Assembly: GCF_003946145.1 (NCBI RefSeq)
Contig: NZ_RHOC01000007.1
Location: 1-64,000, forward strand
From: Levilactobacillus huananensis
Lineage (GTDB): Bacteria > Bacillota > Bacilli > Lactobacillales > Lactobacillaceae
Length of the DNA: 64,000 nt
Direction of reading: 5' to 3'
Of the stretch, positions 33,145 to 38,631 are shown piece by piece (the first letter of the stretch is position 1; each line of letters opens with the position of its first letter). Under the pieces are notes generated by a model that saw only the letters and a program-made list of their open reading frames with translations, made no database searches and was not told where the DNA came from. Position numbers and translations under genes: made by a program.

Positions 33145-33912
33145 TTAATCGGCAAATAGGCCCAATAAATCTTCCTGTCGAATGCGCTGCTTCTCCTCGC
33201 CACGCACATCCAACTTAATCTGACCATCTTGAACCATAACCAACCGATTGCCGTAAGTTAATGCGTCACTCATCTTATGGGTAATCATCAGTGTGGTTAA
33301 ATGATTCTCGGCCACAATCTTTTGGGTCAGTGCCATCACTTGGCGACTAGTCTGAGGATCCAAGGCCGCCGTATGTTCATCCAATAAAAGTAATTCTGGA
33401 TGGCTCAAGGTTGCCATCAGTAGCGATAATGCCTGGCGTTGACCACCGGACAAGTATTTCACCTGTGTGGTCAGTCGATCTTCTAACCCCATGTTCAGGG
33501 GCTGCAGGAGAGCTCGATAGGCTGTGGTCTGCCCCTTGTGCCGAAATCCGCGGAGACTCATGCTGCCGGTGTGTTGCTCCGCCAACGTGAGATTCTCGGC
33601 GACACTCAGTTCCCCAGCCGTGCCCATCTTAGGATCTTGGAAAACCCGGGACAACCAACGTGACCGGTATGCCACGGGTTTGTGCGTCACATCATGGTCA
33701 GCGAGCCGCAACTCACCGGCGTCGACCGGCAACGTTCCCGCAATCGTATTGAGAAGTGTTGATTTCCCAGCACCATTGTTTCCAATAACGGCCACAAAGT
33801 CCCCAGGGGCAATAGTGAGACTAACATCCTTTAAGACATGACGCTCATTTACCGTTCCGGGAAAGAAGACCTTCTGTAGGTGCTTGACGCTTAAGACTGC
33901 TGGTTGTGGCAT
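33145..33912 (-). CDS. TrpXYZ-type ABC transporter ATP-binding protein (operon 1)
   Basis: The 255-residue ATPase belongs to the importer paired with ABC_sub_bind receptors. Walker A GNNGAGKS, signature YLSGGQRQALS and Walker B LLLLDEHTAALDPQT are all present; the DEHTAALDP form is characteristic of this family. The start is the ATG at 33912 with TTGGAG upstream. It overlaps the permease gene by 68 bases, much more than in the paralogous operon 2 (8 bases). It is the last gene of the minus-strand operon whose leader encodes a Phe-rich peptide. Confidence 0.9.
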   Translation of the reverse strand: MPQPAVLSVKHLQKVFFPGTVNERHVLKDVSLTIAPGDFVAVIGNNGAGKSTLLNTIAGTLPVDAGELRLADHDVTHKPVAYRSRWLSRVFQDPKMGTAGELSVAENLTLAEQHTGSMSLRGFRHKGQTTAYRALLQPLNMGLEDRLTTQVKYLSGGQRQALSLLMATLSHPELLLLDEHTAALDPQTSRQVMALTQKIVAENHLTTLMITHKMSDALTYGNRLVMVQDGQIKLDVRGEEKQRIRQEDLLGLFAD

Positions 33913-34810
33913 GCTGATCGACTCCAATCTGTTTGAGATAACGTTTCAACTGTTGCTTCGTCTGTAACTTATTGCGTAATAATGGCAAGCAAATCACGAT
34001 CACTAGGATCCCTGCTGAGAGAATCTTGAGGTCGTCGACTGGGAAACCCAGACCCATGGCAACGGTCAGGAGGTAACGATAAATCACGGCTCCCAAGACC
34101 ATTGCGGTCAAACGTAACCAAATCTGGCGTCCTCGTAAGAAGATCTCGCCAACCAGAACGGAGGCCAGGCCAATCACGATCGTCCCAATCCCCATGCCAA
34201 TGTCGGCGAACCCATTACTCTGGGCAATCAGAGCCCCAGAAAGGGCGATACAACCGTTAGAAACCATATATCCCAGAATCACCATCCGGTCGGTATAAAT
34301 CCCGTTAGCGGCACTCATAGCGGCATTATTCCCAGTAGCCATTAGCGAAAGTCCGAGTCGGGTCCGGAACAACCAGATGAGACTCGCCATGACCAGGGCT
34401 GTCACGCCTAGACCCACGACAATGGTCTGAAAATCCAGCGACCAGGTTGCCGGTAGATAACTGGTCAAAACCTGTTGATCGAGAAGCGGCACGTTAGACT
34501 TCCCCATCACGTGCATGTTAACGGAGTACAGTCCCGTCATCGTGAGAATCCCCGCCAATAAGGAAGGCATTTTTAGTTTAGTGTCCAACATTCCCGTCAC
34601 CCAACCAGCCAGGCAGCCGGCTAAGAACCCTAATAGGCTAGCCACAATAGCTGATTGTCCGTGAATCATGGCGCTGACGGTCACCGCGGCTCCTAGTGGG
34701 AAGCTCCCTTCGGTGGTCAAGTCAGGAATATCTAAAATACGAAATGTCAGGAAAACCCCAATGACCAGGGGTGCCCACAGAAGGCCTTGACCGATACTCG
34801 TGATTAACAT
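33845..34810 (-). CDS. TrpXYZ-type ABC transporter permease (operon 1)
   Basis: The 321-residue membrane protein has about eight segments and the family opening LITSIGQGLLWAPLVIGVFLTFRILD. The motif ANGIYTDRMVILGYMVSNGCIALSGALIAQ is shared with the operon 2 permease. The C-terminus is about 20 residues longer than the paralogue and is polar. ABC_sub_bind systems import aromatic amino acids in the few cases studied (TrpXYZ of streptococci). Confidence 0.9.
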   Translation of the reverse strand: MLITSIGQGLLWAPLVIGVFLTFRILDIPDLTTEGSFPLGAAVTVSAMIHGQSAIVASLLGFLAGCLAGWVTGMLDTKLKMPSLLAGILTMTGLYSVNMHVMGKSNVPLLDQQVLTSYLPATWSLDFQTIVVGLGVTALVMASLIWLFRTRLGLSLMATGNNAAMSAANGIYTDRMVILGYMVSNGCIALSGALIAQSNGFADIGMGIGTIVIGLASVLVGEIFLRGRQIWLRLTAMVLGAVIYRYLLTVAMGLGFPVDDLKILSAGILVIVICLPLLRNKLQTKQQLKRYLKQIGVDQHATTSSLKRQAPTEGLLSRNGK

Positions 34811-34831
34811 TACTGATCATCCTTTCTAAAC

Positions 34832-35806
34832 TTAGGGTTGCTTAATCTGCTTGGGTTGCATGCCAATGGCCTTGGTGTTGGCCTTGTTGATGTAAAGGTG
34901 TAGATGCTTAGAGGTTTCAACCGCCATATTCTGAGACTTTTTGCCGTTCTCTAGCACGCTGTAAGCCATCTTCCCGGTTTGCTTACCGAGGTCATAGTAG
35001 TCAATCCCGTAAGTTGCGGTTCCACCATCTTGGGCCATTTCGATCGACCCCGTCACAACGGGTAACTTGGCAGCCTTAGCCTTCTGACCAATGGTCTTCA
35101 TGGCACTGGCCATCAGGTTATCAGTTGGCAGGTACAATCCAGAAATTTTACCTTGTAAGCCTGCAAGCACGCTAGCAACATCGTTAGTGCTGGTTGCACT
35201 GACCACCTTGAGTTTCAAGTCATGCTTCTTGGCATATGCCTTGGCTAACTTCACCTGTAAGACCGAGTTCTCTTCGGAGGAGTTGTACATGATGCCTAAG
35301 GGTTTGTTGCCCTTGGTCATGCTAGCTAAAAGCTTTAATTGCAAGCCAACCGGCGTCAAATCGCTGGTCCCACTGACGTTGGTTTGTGGCTTATTGTTGG
35401 TCTTCACCAACCCAGCTGCCTTCAAATCAGTCACTGCGGTTACCAGCGTTGGCGTCGTCTTGGTCTTCTTGGCCAAAGCCTGCGCAGCTGGTGTGGCAAT
35501 TCCCAACAATAAGTCATTCTTTTGTTGACTCAGTTGTTGACTCATCGTGTTTAGATTGGCCTGGTCGCCCTGCGCGTTGAGGTAATGGTAGGTTACCTTA
35601 ACGGACTTGTGATGATCCTTTAATTCCTGTTTCAAGCCAGCCTTGAACCCTTGTCTGGCTTCATCGAGTGATCCGTGTTGGACGACTTGTAGAATGCCAA
35701 CATGCAAGGTGTTCTTGCTACTGGCGTCCGTTTTGTTTGAGCACCCGGCTAACGTCAATCCCAATCCTAATAACGCAATACTTGTTAATAATCCCTTTTT
35801 CATCAT
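34832..35806 (-). CDS. TrpX-type ABC transporter substrate-binding lipoprotein (operon 1)
   Basis: The 324-residue receptor has lipobox LAGC (Cys at about 22) and an ABC_sub_bind domain with the two-lobed pattern VGILQVVQHGSLDEARQGF, LLLGIATPAAQAL and IYNSS-like segments. CTGGAGGGAAATA precedes two consecutive ATG codons. The first gene of operon 1; a leader of about 510 bases with a Phe-rich peptide and a strong terminator lies ahead, so the ligand is probably phenylalanine or a mix of aromatic amino acids. That ligand is inference. Confidence 0.9.
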   Translation of the reverse strand: MMKKGLLTSIALLGLGLTLAGCSNKTDASSKNTLHVGILQVVQHGSLDEARQGFKAGLKQELKDHHKSVKVTYHYLNAQGDQANLNTMSQQLSQQKNDLLLGIATPAAQALAKKTKTTPTLVTAVTDLKAAGLVKTNNKPQTNVSGTSDLTPVGLQLKLLASMTKGNKPLGIMYNSSEENSVLQVKLAKAYAKKHDLKLKVVSATSTNDVASVLAGLQGKISGLYLPTDNLMASAMKTIGQKAKAAKLPVVTGSIEMAQDGGTATYGIDYYDLGKQTGKMAYSVLENGKKSQNMAVETSKHLHLYINKANTKAIGMQPKQIKQP

Positions 35807-36039
35807 TATTTCCCTCCAGAATTTGCTGTGACCAATAGTATCGGCCCGTTTCGTTGTTTTTATTGACTGATAAATCTGGTGCCATTTGGCTCACCGGCCT
35901 TTCAACTGACTTGGCTTTGTTTAAGTAGAAGTGCAGCTAACACGATGCGTCCATGGTGCCAGCCTGGCTACTTCTGAGCGGCGTTCCTCAAGGCGGAGAG
36001 TTTCGCTTAACCCTAACTGCCTTGGCTCACACGCTAAAA
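35807..36039 (-). other. Downstream part of the operon 1 leader
   Basis: About 230 bases lie between the leader terminator and the start of the receptor gene. They contain one copy of a dispersed inverted repeat (35981-36023), complementary stretches around 35930 and 35970, and the sequence TGGCACC twice. I find no second terminator and no good leader ORF. Its role is unclear. Confidence 0.4.
35981..36023. repeat. Dispersed intergenic repeat, copy 2
   Basis: Same orientation as copy 1: GCG, then CTCAAGGCGG, then TTTCGCTTAAC and CTAACTGCCTT. It lies in the leader of ABC operon 1, downstream of its terminator. Confidence 0.5.
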
Positions 36040-36084
36040 ACAAAAAAACACCAGATAGATTCTGAGTAGAATCTACCTGGTGTT
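36040..36084 (-). terminator. Intrinsic terminator of the Phe leader attenuator
   Basis: On the minus strand AACACCAGGTAGATTCT (36084-36068) pairs with AGAATCTATCTGGTGTT (36063-36047), a 17-bp stem with one G-U and a 4-base loop. TTTTTG and TTTTT follow. The 5' arm can instead pair with 36116-36107, which would prevent the terminator. Confidence 0.92.
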
Positions 36085-36106
36085 ATCGGGCCCCGATATA
36101 TTTTCT

Positions 36107-36225
36107 CCAGATAGATTATACCCGTATCTATCTGGCGCTTAAGTCATGTTGAAAAACTTTAGCTAATCGATAGATACAAACGCAATTGAGCGGCGCGTTC
36201 GTATCCAACGTATGAATACAAACGC
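36107..36225 (-). promoter_or_regulatory. Relay of mutually exclusive RNA helices in the Phe leader
   Basis: Minus-strand RNA segments: a 36225-36214, b 36206-36195, c 36183-36169, d 36135-36124, e 36116-36107, then f and g of the terminator. Complementary pairs are a with b, b with c, c with d (9 bp, GTATCTATC with GATAGATAC), d with e (10 bp, CCAGATAGAT with ATCTATCTGG), and e with f (10 bp, one G-U). So a:b + c:d + e:f is one state, with no terminator. The other is b:c + d:e + f:g, with terminator. Segment a covers the stop codon of the leader peptide. Confidence 0.75.
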
Positions 36226-36287
36226 TATCTAAAGAAAAAGCTAAAGGCAAATTGGTTATTTAAATGAGTGAGGTTATTTGGCTTCAT
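36225..36287 (-). CDS. Phe-rich leader peptide
   Basis: The 20-codon ORF encodes MKPNNLTHLNNQFAFSFFFR. Five of the last eight residues are Phe (13, 15, 17, 18, 19). AAAGGA lies 9 bases before the ATG, and the TAG stop is the first part of segment a of the helix relay. The layout matches the pheA leader of enterobacteria, whose peptide is also Phe-rich. The expected role is sensing of charged tRNA-Phe by ribosome stalling. It is too short to be found by ordinary gene callers. Confidence 0.8.
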   Translation of the reverse strand: MKPNNLTHLNNQFAFSFFFR

Positions 36288-36324
36288 GAGTGAAGTTCCT
36301 TTCATTTTTCAATTTACAAATACC

Positions 36325-36353
36325 AGTTAACCATTAAAAAATGAGACTGTCAA
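36325..36353 (-). promoter_or_regulatory. Promoter of ABC operon 1 (Phe leader)
   Basis: TTGACA (36348-36353) and TTAACT (36325-36330) lie 17 bases apart on the minus strand. Transcription would start near 36318, about 30 bases before the leader peptide. Confidence 0.75.
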
Positions 36354-36367
36354 CCCCAAATCCTCAT

Positions 36368-37258
36368 TTATTTCTCATCATTTGGAATCAGGCTGTGATA
36401 GTCTTGCGACCAAGCCAACCCCATGGCCCCATCACCGACGTGGACCCCAAAGCTGGGACCAATCGGCGCGACATCAAAGGTCGCCATGGGGAACCGATCG
36501 CGTGCAATCGCCACCCACTGTTGTGTGGCCTCCGGTTGGTCAGCGTTAAGAATGGTGGCCTTAACCGGTTGTTTCCCTGACAGATCCACCGCCAAACTAT
36601 CCAAGAAGTCGCTGAGCGCGCCCTTAGAACGTAGGACACTCCCGGCATAACGCATCTTCCCCGAGGGTTCAAATGTCAACATCGGCTTCCCAGCATAAAG
36701 GGGGTTGCTACCTGGTGCATGACTAGGATTAACCTCACCCGTTCGCAGTAGCGGCTTCATGGAAGCTACAACAAACGCACTGTGAATTGTCTGGCGTAGG
36801 GCCGTCAACTGTGCAAAGATCTCGGTGATCGTTGCGCCCTGTTGGACCATCGCAGCTGCCAATCGTACTTGATCACCCATGACGGTCAACACTCCACGAG
36901 AATCCCATGGTCGGACGTGCAGGACCGTCACGTTTTCCACATAAGCGGCCAAGGTATTCACGAATCCCGAGATTCCTAATGATGGCCCAATCACAATGAC
37001 ATCGGTGTAGCCCTCACCGGCTAGCTTCTGACAGGTAGCCTGAATCGTCTTCATCGACAATTGTGGGGCCGTTGGAACAACCTTCTTTGTCTTCGCAAGT
37101 CGCATTAAACGGTAATAATCTGCCGTGGATAAGTCCAAGTACTCGTGGTACTGCCGGTTACCGAACATGATGGGTGCTGGTAAGAGTGTTATGTGGCGTT
37201 GTGCTGCTTCGTCGAACGAAATTCCCGACGACGTGTCCGTCATCACTGCAATTTTCAT
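36368..37258 (-). CDS. DegV family fatty-acid-binding protein
   Basis: The 296-residue protein has the DegV opening MKIAVMTDTSSGI with the TDTSSG lipid-binding motif, a central SPG-type region and the C-terminal GPSFGVHVGDGAMGLAW. DegV/FakB proteins bind fatty acids for phosphorylation by FakA. I place the start at 37258, since GAAGGGTGG lies upstream; the frame's earlier ATG has no ribosome binding site. It lies between the two ABC operons and is divergent from operon 2. It ends 15 bases from the operon 1 promoter, with no visible terminator. Confidence 0.9.
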   Translation of the reverse strand: MKIAVMTDTSSGISFDEAAQRHITLLPAPIMFGNRQYHEYLDLSTADYYRLMRLAKTKKVVPTAPQLSMKTIQATCQKLAGEGYTDVIVIGPSLGISGFVNTLAAYVENVTVLHVRPWDSRGVLTVMGDQVRLAAAMVQQGATITEIFAQLTALRQTIHSAFVVASMKPLLRTGEVNPSHAPGSNPLYAGKPMLTFEPSGKMRYAGSVLRSKGALSDFLDSLAVDLSGKQPVKATILNADQPEATQQWVAIARDRFPMATFDVAPIGPSFGVHVGDGAMGLAWSQDYHSLIPNDEK

Positions 37259-37352: not shown

Positions 37353-37385
37353 AGTCTTAATCAAATTCGGAAAGAAGGAAAGTTT

Positions 37386-37433
37386 ATGCAACTGTCTGGT
37401 ATTCAGTTAAATGGACGTTGGCAAAGCCGGTAA
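37386..37433 (+). CDS. Trp-containing leader peptide
   Basis: The 15-codon ORF encodes MQLSGIQLNGRWQSR, with its single Trp at position 12, four codons before the stop. AAGGAA lies 5 bases upstream of the ATG. The last codons and stop overlap AGCCGG (37425-37430), one arm of an alternative helix. The context is that of a leader peptide whose translation decides between terminator and antiterminator. A single Trp codon is a weaker signal than the Phe run in the other leader. Confidence 0.7.
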   Translation: MQLSGIQLNGRWQSR

Positions 37434-37526
37434 TCAAGTCGTCATCGAGTAGATGCGACTTGAGCTCCCAGAGCGATTTTCGCATCTGCGCCGGCTAACT
37501 TTCTGATGCAATAGCCCGCACGGATG
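37425..37526 (+). promoter_or_regulatory. Alternative RNA helices of the Trp leader
   Basis: Helix 1: TCAAGTCGTCATC (37434-37446) with GATGCGACTTGA (37452-37463), one bulge. Helix 2: AGATGCGA (37451-37458) with TCGCATCT (37480-37487), exclusive with helix 1. AGCCGG (37425-37430) can pair with CCGGCT (37491-37496). Antiterminator candidate: 37483-37497 with 37512-37526, 13 bp with two small bulges; it takes up the 5' arm of the first terminator and is exclusive with helix 2. Confidence 0.65.
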
Positions 37527-37555
37527 TCTTCTTCTCCGGTTTTGCGGGCCTTTTT
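37514..37555 (+). terminator. First terminator of the Trp leader
   Basis: GCCCGCA (37514-37520) pairs with TGCGGGC (37543-37549). An inner CGGA/TCCG helix sits in the loop, and TTTTT follows. Confidence 0.8.
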
Positions 37556-37560
37556 ATTGG

Positions 37561-37588
37561 GCACCCAGCCGGTCTGGGTGCTCTTTTT
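37561..37588 (+). terminator. Second terminator of the Trp leader
   Basis: GCACCCAG pairs with CTGGGTGC around 5 bases, followed by TCTTTTT. It lies 48 bases before the receptor gene. I find no competing helix for it, so it may act as a constant damper. Confidence 0.88.
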
Positions 37589-37635
37589 CTATACGGCTAA
37601 CATCATCAACCATTGAATTAAAGTGAGGTAAAAAT

Positions 37636-38631
37636 ATGAAACGTCTATACGGTTTAATCGCAATTCTAGTGGTCTTCCTGGGATTTGCCTTCGTTCAGGA
37701 GAGTCGACCAGACTCCGCCACTAAGAAACCCGTCCCCACGGTAGGAATTCTTCAACTATTATCCCACCCCGCCCTGGATGCCATTCATAAAGGGATTATT
37801 CACGGCTTGGCTGAGGAAGGCTATCACGTCAACAAGAACGTTAAAATTGACTTCCAGAATGCTCAGAACGATCAGAGTAATCTGAAAACCATGAGTGCCC
37901 GGTTCGTTGACGAGAAGGCTGATGCCATGATCGGCATCGCGACGCCGTCTGCACAGGCGCTGGCCAATGCTAGTTCCAACATCCCCGTTGTTCTTGGGGC
38001 CATCACGGATCCCAAGGGAGCTGACCTGGTTCAGAGCAACAACCATCCTGGAAACAACGTTACAGGGGTTTCCGACCAGGCGCCCCTCAAATCCCAACTG
38101 AAGCTGATTCAAAAGATTATGCCAAAAATGCAGACATTAGGGATCATTTACACGTCCTCCGATGACTCGGCGACCGCTCAGTACCATCAGTTTGCGGCAC
38201 TTTGCAAGCAGGAACACGTTAGGCTCAAAGCCTACACGATTGCCAGCACCAATGACCTCAACCAGGTCGCTCAACAGATGGTCAGTCAGGTCGATGCAAT
38301 CTATGTTCCAACCGACAACACCGTCGCCAGTGCCATGCAGACATTGGTTTCAACGGCCAACGCTAAGAGGGTTCCCGTCTTTCCAGCCGTCGACACCATG
38401 GTCAAGGCTGGTGGACTTGCCACCCTCAGCATCAACCAATACAAGTTGGGCGTTGAGACGGGCAAGATGACTGCCGCCATTCTTAAGGGTAAGGACCCGG
38501 CCAACACGCCTATTCATTTCGAACGGCAGGGTGAAATGACCATTAACTTAACCCAAGCCAAGAAACTCGGCATCACGTTACCTGATTCTGTTATTCAAGA
38601 AGCCCAAAAACACGGGGAGGTTTTCAAATGA
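37636..38631 (+). CDS. TrpX-type ABC transporter substrate-binding protein (operon 2), membrane-anchored
   Basis: The 331-residue receptor is homologous to the operon 1 receptor (VGILQLLSHPALDAIHKGI; MIGIATPSAQALANA; GIIYTSSDDS). Unlike that protein it has no lipobox Cys. A single hydrophobic segment (about 5-20) likely serves as uncleaved anchor. AGTGAGGTAAAAAT precedes the ATG. The Trp-containing leader peptide upstream suggests tryptophan as ligand, which is inference. It overlaps the permease gene by four bases. Confidence 0.9.
   Translation: MKRLYGLIAILVVFLGFAFVQESRPDSATKKPVPTVGILQLLSHPALDAIHKGIIHGLAEEGYHVNKNVKIDFQNAQNDQSNLKTMSARFVDEKADAMIGIATPSAQALANASSNIPVVLGAITDPKGADLVQSNNHPGNNVTGVSDQAPLKSQLKLIQKIMPKMQTLGIIYTSSDDSATAQYHQFAALCKQEHVRLKAYTIASTNDLNQVAQQMVSQVDAIYVPTDNTVASAMQTLVSTANAKRVPVFPAVDTMVKAGGLATLSINQYKLGVETGKMTAAILKGKDPANTPIHFERQGEMTINLTQAKKLGITLPDSVIQEAQKHGEVFK

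Follow-up and report, generated by a model that had tools for sequence, protein, structure and literature searches.

A minus-strand control element at positions 36353-36040 of a 64,000-nucleotide (nt) stretch of the Levilactobacillus huananensis genome (contig NZ_RHOC01000007.1, positions 1 to 64,000; hereafter the window) very probably acts as a ribosome-mediated transcription attenuator, in which scarcity of charged tRNA-Phe switches on an aromatic amino-acid ATP-binding cassette (ABC) importer. The element consists of a promoter, a 20-codon open reading frame (ORF) led by a Shine-Dalgarno (SD) site, seven pairing segments and a terminator with a U-run. It is the all-Phe member of a superfamily of aromatic leaders in Lactobacillales, the Phe/Tyr forms of which resemble the Rfam family RF02863 and the Trp forms RF04312. 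A preliminary description, made from the sequence alone, had noted the element and proposed attenuation by Phe; the observation itself was confirmed, and its interpretation is supported by sequence comparison and modelling. The parts of the element are as follows.

36325..36353 (-), promoter: TTGACA (36353-36348), 17-nt spacer, TTAACT (36330-36325); read from the sequence and kept in the copies
36225..36287 (-), leader ORF MKPNNLTHLNNQFAFSFFFR: ATG start, TAG stop at 36227-36225, SD-like AAAGGA directly 5′
36240..36246 (-), CTTTAGC within the leader ORF, complement of GCTAAAG at 36157-36163; pairing kept in 27 copies
36226..36238 (-), 3′ end of the ORF, able to capture segment e (partner 36101-36113; helix of the minimum free energy (MFE) fold); proposed basal lock
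36213..36225 (-), segment a, partner of b (folding and alignment); its first base is the G of the TAG stop
36195..36207 (-), segment b, alternative partners a and c (helix alignment)
36169..36183 (-), segment c, alternative partners b and d (helix alignment)
36157..36163 (-), GCTAAAG adjoining segment c, partner of the ORF CTTTAGC (helix alignment)
36124..36135 (-), segment d, alternative partners c and e (helix alignment)
36107..36117 (-), segment e, alternative partners d, f and the 3′ end of the ORF (helix alignment)
36084..36098 (-), hairpin UAUCGG-GGC-CCGAUA between e and f (MFE helix 36098-36093:36089-36084)
36068..36083 (-), segment f, 5′ arm of the terminator; antiterminator when paired with e (folding and alignment)
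36048..36063 (-), segment g, 3′ arm of the terminator; 6/16 f:g pairs changed on both sides
36040..36047 (-), U-run of the terminator; read from the sequence

All six helices, as drawn here, form without a mismatch in the window copy: a:b, c:d and e:f in chain 1, and b:c, d:e and f:g in chain 2. These are the two exclusive chains of the preliminary description. Folding of the element RNA gave a z-score of -8.5 relative to shuffled sequences, none of 200 shuffles being as good. The promoter TTGACA-17-TTAACT and the Phe-rich ORF with its ribosome binding site had also been claimed; both are present, and the ORF encodes exactly the peptide given, with Phe at five of its last eight codons. Two details required revision: the terminator and its U-run stand but folding gives a stem of 16 bp (36083-36068 with 36063-36048) in place of 17 bp, and segment a, described as covering the leader stop codon, overlaps only the last base of that codon. 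Two further helices were found, one joining the ORF 3′ end to e (36238-36226 with 36113-36101) and the other joining CTTTAGC to GCTAAAG (36246-36240 with 36163-36157). The GGGCCC of the hairpin between e and f is retained in most copies.

The element was present in 32/35 genomes of the genus, including the source genome. A loose FAF-x-FFF pattern matched in 90/397 family genomes, many matches having the same 21 bases and others being unrelated; among 30 loci from this pattern, 21 carry the element, all 21 with orthologous importer genes downstream, and the other nine are other pattern matches. From Levilactobacillus, Lactiplantibacillus and one further genus, 54 distinct copies were collected. 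All of them retain the ATG start, the frame, the stop codon, the C-terminus QFAFSFFFR and five Phe codons; a lack of Phe-codon conservation had been named beforehand as a result that would speak against attenuation. Leader length ranges from 20 to 23 codons, the N-termini vary in sequence, and the SD-like site matches 3-5 of 6 bases. TTGACA is likewise found in 54/54 copies, with a spacer of 17 nt in 51 and 18 nt in three, followed by a -10 box of TTTACT (27), TTAACT (26) or TTACAT (1). The peptide matched no NCBIfam family.

Third positions of the last eight leader codons are nearly fixed (GCC, AGC and TTC in 54/54), which points to RNA pairing. Further upstream, residues are kept while codons vary (Leu -12: TTA 39, TTG 14, CTA 1; Gln -9: CAA 49, CAG 5), which points to the peptide. 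Selection on the peptide alone was considered as the cause of the invariant DNA at the ORF end and rejected, because third positions are fixed there too and the upstream Leu and Gln codons vary.

Pairing was assessed in an alignment of 27 diverse Lactobacillaceae copies. Chain 1 was paired in 98.5% and chain 2 in 98.3% of cells, compared with 23-46% when the partners were slid by 1-3 columns as a control. For chain 2, seven pairs had changed on both sides, comprising 34 cells versus 11.1 expected, and 0/500 shuffles gave as many. The two lock helices were paired in 94.9% of cells combined (CTTTAGC:GCTAAAG 98.4%, ORF 3′ end:e 93.0%). Using a greedy relay search on the 54 copies, helices stronger than 95% of shuffles were obtained for e:f in 51, d:e in 46, c:d in 35, b:c in 52 and a:b in 26; only such fractions are compared here, as the shuffled mean energies for b:c and c:d were spoiled by the value assigned when no duplex formed.

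To model the switch, transcripts ending at the end of f were folded while the bases under a ribosome (A site -18 to +13) were kept unpaired. Across the 54 copies mean e:f pairing was 0.37 with no ribosome, 0.48 with the A site at codon -8 and 0.64 to 0.75 at codons -7 to -4 (0.72-0.75 at -6 to -4), falling to 0.67 at -3, 0.55 at -2, 0.34 at -1 and 0.22 at the stop codon, where d:e pairing climbed to 0.62. The best e:f value at -7 to -4 exceeded that at the stop by >0.2 in 44/54 copies and was reversed by that much in 0/54. Each of four footprint sizes, applied to 27 of the 54 copies, peaked at -6 or -4 with a minimum at the stop, and an earlier version of the model with hand-set segments gave the same order of states in 51/54 copies (the other three being a pattern miss). 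A crude measure, pairing of the f arm with anything upstream, had a similar shape but was noisy (best minus stop >0.2 in 29/54, 19/58 and 2/18, below -0.2 in 0, 1 and 0) and was replaced by e:f.

The proposed direction of the switch was thus borne out in silico, with e:f high at the Phe codons and low at the stop. The accompanying claim that a free segment a ends in antitermination held for a ribosome at the Phe codons; without a ribosome antitermination was only partial (0.37), owing to competition for e from the 3′ end of the ORF. These values are consistent with a model in which, when Phe is ample, the ribosome would reach UAG and cover a, so that b:c, d:e and f:g form and transcription stops. 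When Phe is scarce, the ribosome would halt at the Phe codons, leaving a free and covering the ORF 3′ end, so that a:b, c:d and e:f form and read-through follows. If no ribosome covers the 3′ end of the ORF, this end, together with the CTTTAGC:GCTAAAG helix, may compete for e and part of c; the basal state would then lean to termination, and only a ribosome stalled at the proper codons would bring full antitermination.

The element is not a one-off Phe device of a lactobacillus, as many genomes of the Lactobacillales carry Phe/Tyr or Trp forms. The Phe/Tyr relative is RF02863, filed in Rfam as 'Enterococcus sRNA 2410', to which the window element aligns end to end (model 1-196) at 27.2 bits, under the gathering score of 61. 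The two have in common CUUUAGAUAG, GUAUCUAU and GCUAAAG blocks. RF02863 was found in 68/118 sampled Lactobacillales genomes (32 above cut-off) and 26/43 genera, and in 0/14 control genomes. Of 91 listed matches 80 were examined, and a leader was picked in 79; with L156 (no leader) and L165 (wrong pick) left out, 78 leaders remained. In each of the 78, aromatic codons fill four to six of the last eight positions, typically in the form QLNN(Y/F)(Y/F)FSYFR before the stop, and they mix Phe and Tyr, whereas the window leader contains Phe only. At L145, L147, L149, L157 and similar loci another codon stands in place of the stop, and the ORF runs on for three codons (FSYFRxCL).

RF02863 RNA lies upstream of importer or shikimate genes in 78/80 loci, the first gene 3′ being an importer binding protein in 55 (L165 included), aroE in 20, DAHP synthase in two and aroC in one (Pfam was run on four representatives; the gene at L106 has no assignment). 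Leaders preceding the three shikimate genes bear Tyr/Phe codons; YYFSYFR is commonest before aroE (14/20) and FYFSYFR before importers (24/55). Order-wide, the relay search (76 loci, L147 and L183, where no terminator was found, being left out here and in the footprint analysis) gave helices stronger than 95% of shuffles for e:f in 43, d:e in 50, c:d in 65, b:c in 67 and a:b in 34. The pairs b:c and c:d thus beat shuffles in the most copies, d:e and e:f came next, and a:b was last. In the copies inspected, the sequences of d, e, f and g differ across the order yet stay complementary, and CTTTAGC:GCTAAAG has one clear compensated variant (L189). Lacto-rpoB RNA matches were seen near two Phe/Tyr leaders (L090, 1202-1259 (-), 40.7 bits; L094, 460-514 (-), 43.3 bits).

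The filing of RF02863 as a small RNA (sRNA) raises the alternative of a free-standing RNA acting in trans. The accessible portion of PMC5593968 reports E. faecium sRNA_2410 as a 195-nt RNA with two transcripts on Northern blots. However, a terminated leader would yield RNA of about that size, and the RNA extends from leader ORF to terminator ahead of importer or shikimate genes in 78/80 loci, such that we consider a free-standing trans-acting sRNA very improbable; the terminated RNA may still have a later role in trans.

The Trp relative is RF04312 (SRC-39-1, the 'trpB motif'), which matches the window element at 29.5 bits (model 1-107; gathering score 59) across d:e and the terminator. It was found in 74/128 sampled Lactobacillales genomes, with 28 scoring above cut-off; among 14 control genomes the sole match was in Lactococcus lactis, itself a member of Lactobacillales. 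In 78/89 matches (30/30 in the first sets, 48/53 in the last) the motif is preceded by an ORF with an SD site, an ATG start and Trp close to its end, the stop lying 5-35 nt ahead of the motif. Seven others have Phe/Tyr leaders (six overlaps with RF02863, and L282) and four have none (L252, L255, L271, L281). Under the strict Trp test the controls gave 18/719 at shifted places, 9/839 on the other strand and 0/40 at T-box loci. Two Trp codons are present in 47/78 Trp leaders and one in 31/78. An ending WQSWRR can be read as AGC-N6-AGA-TAG, like FSYFR, and other Trp endings differ at AGC. Trp leaders sit ahead of TrpX-type importers or trpB, the first gene 3′ of Trp-type loci (n=83) being an importer in 73, trpB in four and without assignment in six. 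When 59 RF04312 matches were compared with 74 RF02863 matches, six coincided. Over 199 genomes sampled across the phylum RF04312 gave two weak matches and no credible leader, which limits the claim to Lactobacillales.

These data indicate that RF04312 in Lactobacillales is the 3′ part of Trp-codon leaders, as judged from sequence. As far as the accessible portion of PMC11109978 goes, its discoverers present the trpB motif as a strong riboswitch candidate, mostly upstream of amino-acid-type ABC transporters, and place an antiterminator in the right shoulder of P1, a likeness to the window element. A riboswitch binding an aromatic compound would also suit the highly conserved 3′ half of the element. 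On the other hand, an aromatic leader ORF accompanies 85/89 matches in the Lactobacillales sample, far above the strict Trp controls, and the same portion of PMC11109978 itself leaves an attenuator possible; we therefore hold a riboswitch to be most unlikely. Typical RF04312 members differ from the window element in having Trp leaders and in lacking segments c and d (by eye, in L217).

All three leader types show a recurrent LN dipeptide, placed a few residues ahead of the first aromatic codon (54/54 Lactobacillaceae copies, 58/78 order-wide Phe/Tyr leaders, 28/78 Trp leaders); its Leu codons vary and its Asn codon is mostly AAT.

A further alternative is a nascent-peptide arrest sensor, in which, as in TnaC-like sensing, a free aromatic amino acid in the exit tunnel would stall the ribosome and the RNA relay would read the stall. 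The retention of Leu -12 and Gln -9 despite variable codons would fit such a sensor, as would the spacing of LN to an aromatic residue, 0-3 residues in the 58 Phe/Tyr leaders, and the LN..W order in the 28 Trp leaders. In contrast, the density of aromatic codons in all 78 Phe/Tyr leaders fits tRNA sensing, Phe and Tyr are both frequent at -7 and -6, and a stall caused by a plentiful amino acid would activate the genes for uptake and synthesis at times of no demand. An arrest sensor is accordingly judged improbable, and attenuation by charged tRNA preferred. We put forward, as a speculation that we doubt more than we believe, a hybrid of attenuator and arrest peptide: a single Lactobacillales superfamily (all-Phe, Phe/Tyr and Trp) that controls importers and shikimate/trp genes, includes both orphan Rfam classes, and combines a five-to-seven-segment relay and a lock demanding a halted ribosome with an LN-x-x-aromatic nascent chain that sensitizes the halt.

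Several observations weigh against ribosome-mediated attenuation as drawn here. Conserved helices and compensatory changes had been proposed as a check; the helices are kept and chain 2 is compensated, but chain 1 has a single pair changed on both sides, no more than in shuffles (212/500), and the lock helices have only one such change (30/500). The scarcity in chain 1 may reflect segments too conserved to show it, each having two partners and being hardly free to vary, and support for chain 1 rests on pairing retained through one-sided changes. The folding model is an equilibrium and not a kinetic one, and e:f remained >0.5 at the stop in 11/54 copies. Order-wide the model was weaker, with the same shape: for 59 copies ending in FR the best value was 0.32 and the stop value 0.16 (difference >0.2 in 18, reversed by 0.2 in two), and for 17 copies with the three-codon extension (xCL) the values were 0.27 and 0.19 (>0.2 in three). 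The 31 Trp elements were flat, with e:f at 0.17-0.23 for any ribosome position and no support for a switch; in several of these the automatic segment choice took the ORF end as d, and in the Trp element of the window the second hairpin was chosen as terminator. The window element has an SD-led ORF between promoter and first gene, a cluster of control codons related to the operon, exclusive terminator and antiterminator structures, and a ribosome position that selects the fold in silico. The anatomy, with an apparently translated leader ORF, the conservation, the family across the order, the gene context and the split of the proteins are read from sequence; a stalling ribosome, the direction of control, the basal lock and a part for the LN motif are inferred.

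The genes downstream of the element, and a second leader that the text of the preliminary description did not include, are located as follows.

34832..35806 (-), substrate-binding protein, PF04392; 305 bits to NF041285 TrpX, below its cut-off of 390
33845..34810 (-), ABC permease, PF02653 (family match)
33145..33927 (-), ABC ATPase, PF00005 (family match)
37386..37433 (+), sister Trp leader MQLSGIQLNGRWQSR on a divergent importer operon (sequence and genus relatives)
37434..37600 (+), structured leader with two tandem terminator-like hairpins 5′ of the TrpX-type gene 37636-38631 (fold)

The closest named proteins to the binding protein (96%) are from L. humaensis and L. paucivorans, and the only solved relatives found by sequence were 6hni, 3lft and 3lkv, which we take to bind Tyr, Trp and Phe. 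A divergent paralogue at 37636-38631 (+) scores 488 bits against NCBIfam TrpX. Its leader region (37370-37600, +) has a fold z-score of -4.9, and the RF04312 match within it (37446-37561, 19.7 bits, E 2) is not significant. Relatives of MQLSGIQLNGRWQSR ending in LNGRWQSR occur in many of the examined loci of the genus, and a pattern for this ending matched in 8/151 family genomes, of which six belong to this genus and two to another.

Importer specificity was examined with a tree of 62 binding proteins, comprising random choices of 28/55 Phe/Tyr-type and 28/70 Trp-type proteins, four named Lactobacillaceae proteins and the two from the window; three importers (L255, L271, L282) whose RF04312 match has no Trp leader were excluded. 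In this tree, built by a quick method with several long branches flagged and labelled by the Rfam model that found each locus, importers with Phe/Tyr leaders and those with Trp leaders lie on opposite sides of one starred branch (99). Leader type changes once, compared with a shuffled mean of 20.7, and 0/500 shuffles were as low. Both window binding proteins fall on the side predicted by their own leader. As protein and leader are separate sequences, the split supports both the leaders and the assignment of the importer at 33145-35806 to Phe/Tyr.

In the window about 230 nt (35807-36039, -) separate the terminator from the binding-protein gene; in another Lactobacillaceae genus, unlike in the window, the terminator lies directly 5′ of the SD site of this gene. 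A T-box remnant in these 230 nt was considered and discarded, as Rfam gave no T-box match there to E 10. Nor did the T-box family RF00230 or the Rfam leader families, the enterobacterial Phe type included, match anywhere in the window at gathering or in 35790-36370 to E 10. The source genome has 21 RF00230 matches, four above cut-off, so that Phe and Trp importers under the control of leader peptides would exist alongside numerous T-boxes.

In the literature searched, where subscription journals are thinly covered, the element was not found described as an attenuator, and the accessible portions of PMC3166299, PMC7724050 and PMC11472039 hold nothing bearing on it. Ribosome-mediated attenuation is a known type of mechanism; what appears to be new is its use in this lineage and on these genes, the relay of seven segments with a lock formed by the ORF end, and the interpretation of two Rfam entries as aromatic leaders. 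The findings suggest a testable function for RF02863, and for RF04312 in Lactobacillales, where a listed riboswitch candidate could drop out of the search for orphan ligands. They also suggest that leader-peptide attenuation is a widespread sensor of aromatic amino acids in an order known for T-boxes. The leaders allow importers of lactic acid bacteria to be assigned to Phe/Tyr or Trp, in agreement with the protein tree, and the lock would offer a way to study how such switches stay shut when translation simply fails.

Enterobacterial Phe leaders (pheL/pheA, pheM/pheST), which have about four segments, share with the window element a Phe-rich peptide, exclusive terminator and antiterminator, and ribosome position as the signal. 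The window element differs in its seven segments, in a possible lock formed by the ORF end, and in its place on an importer operon in Lactobacillales. T-boxes, on which amino-acid sensing in this lineage usually depends, recognize tRNA with no ribosome involved, unlike the window element. According to the accessible portions of PMC2965389 and PMC9413887, His leader attenuators of other Firmicutes are a case of regular leader-peptide attenuation where others use T-boxes; they differ in amino acid, lineage and genes. Similarly, the accessible portion of PMC8632094 describes uORFC-13-1 ahead of aroF in Acholeplasma, which places Phe codon(s) in an upstream ORF before a terminator on a shikimate gene, in another lineage and with another motif.
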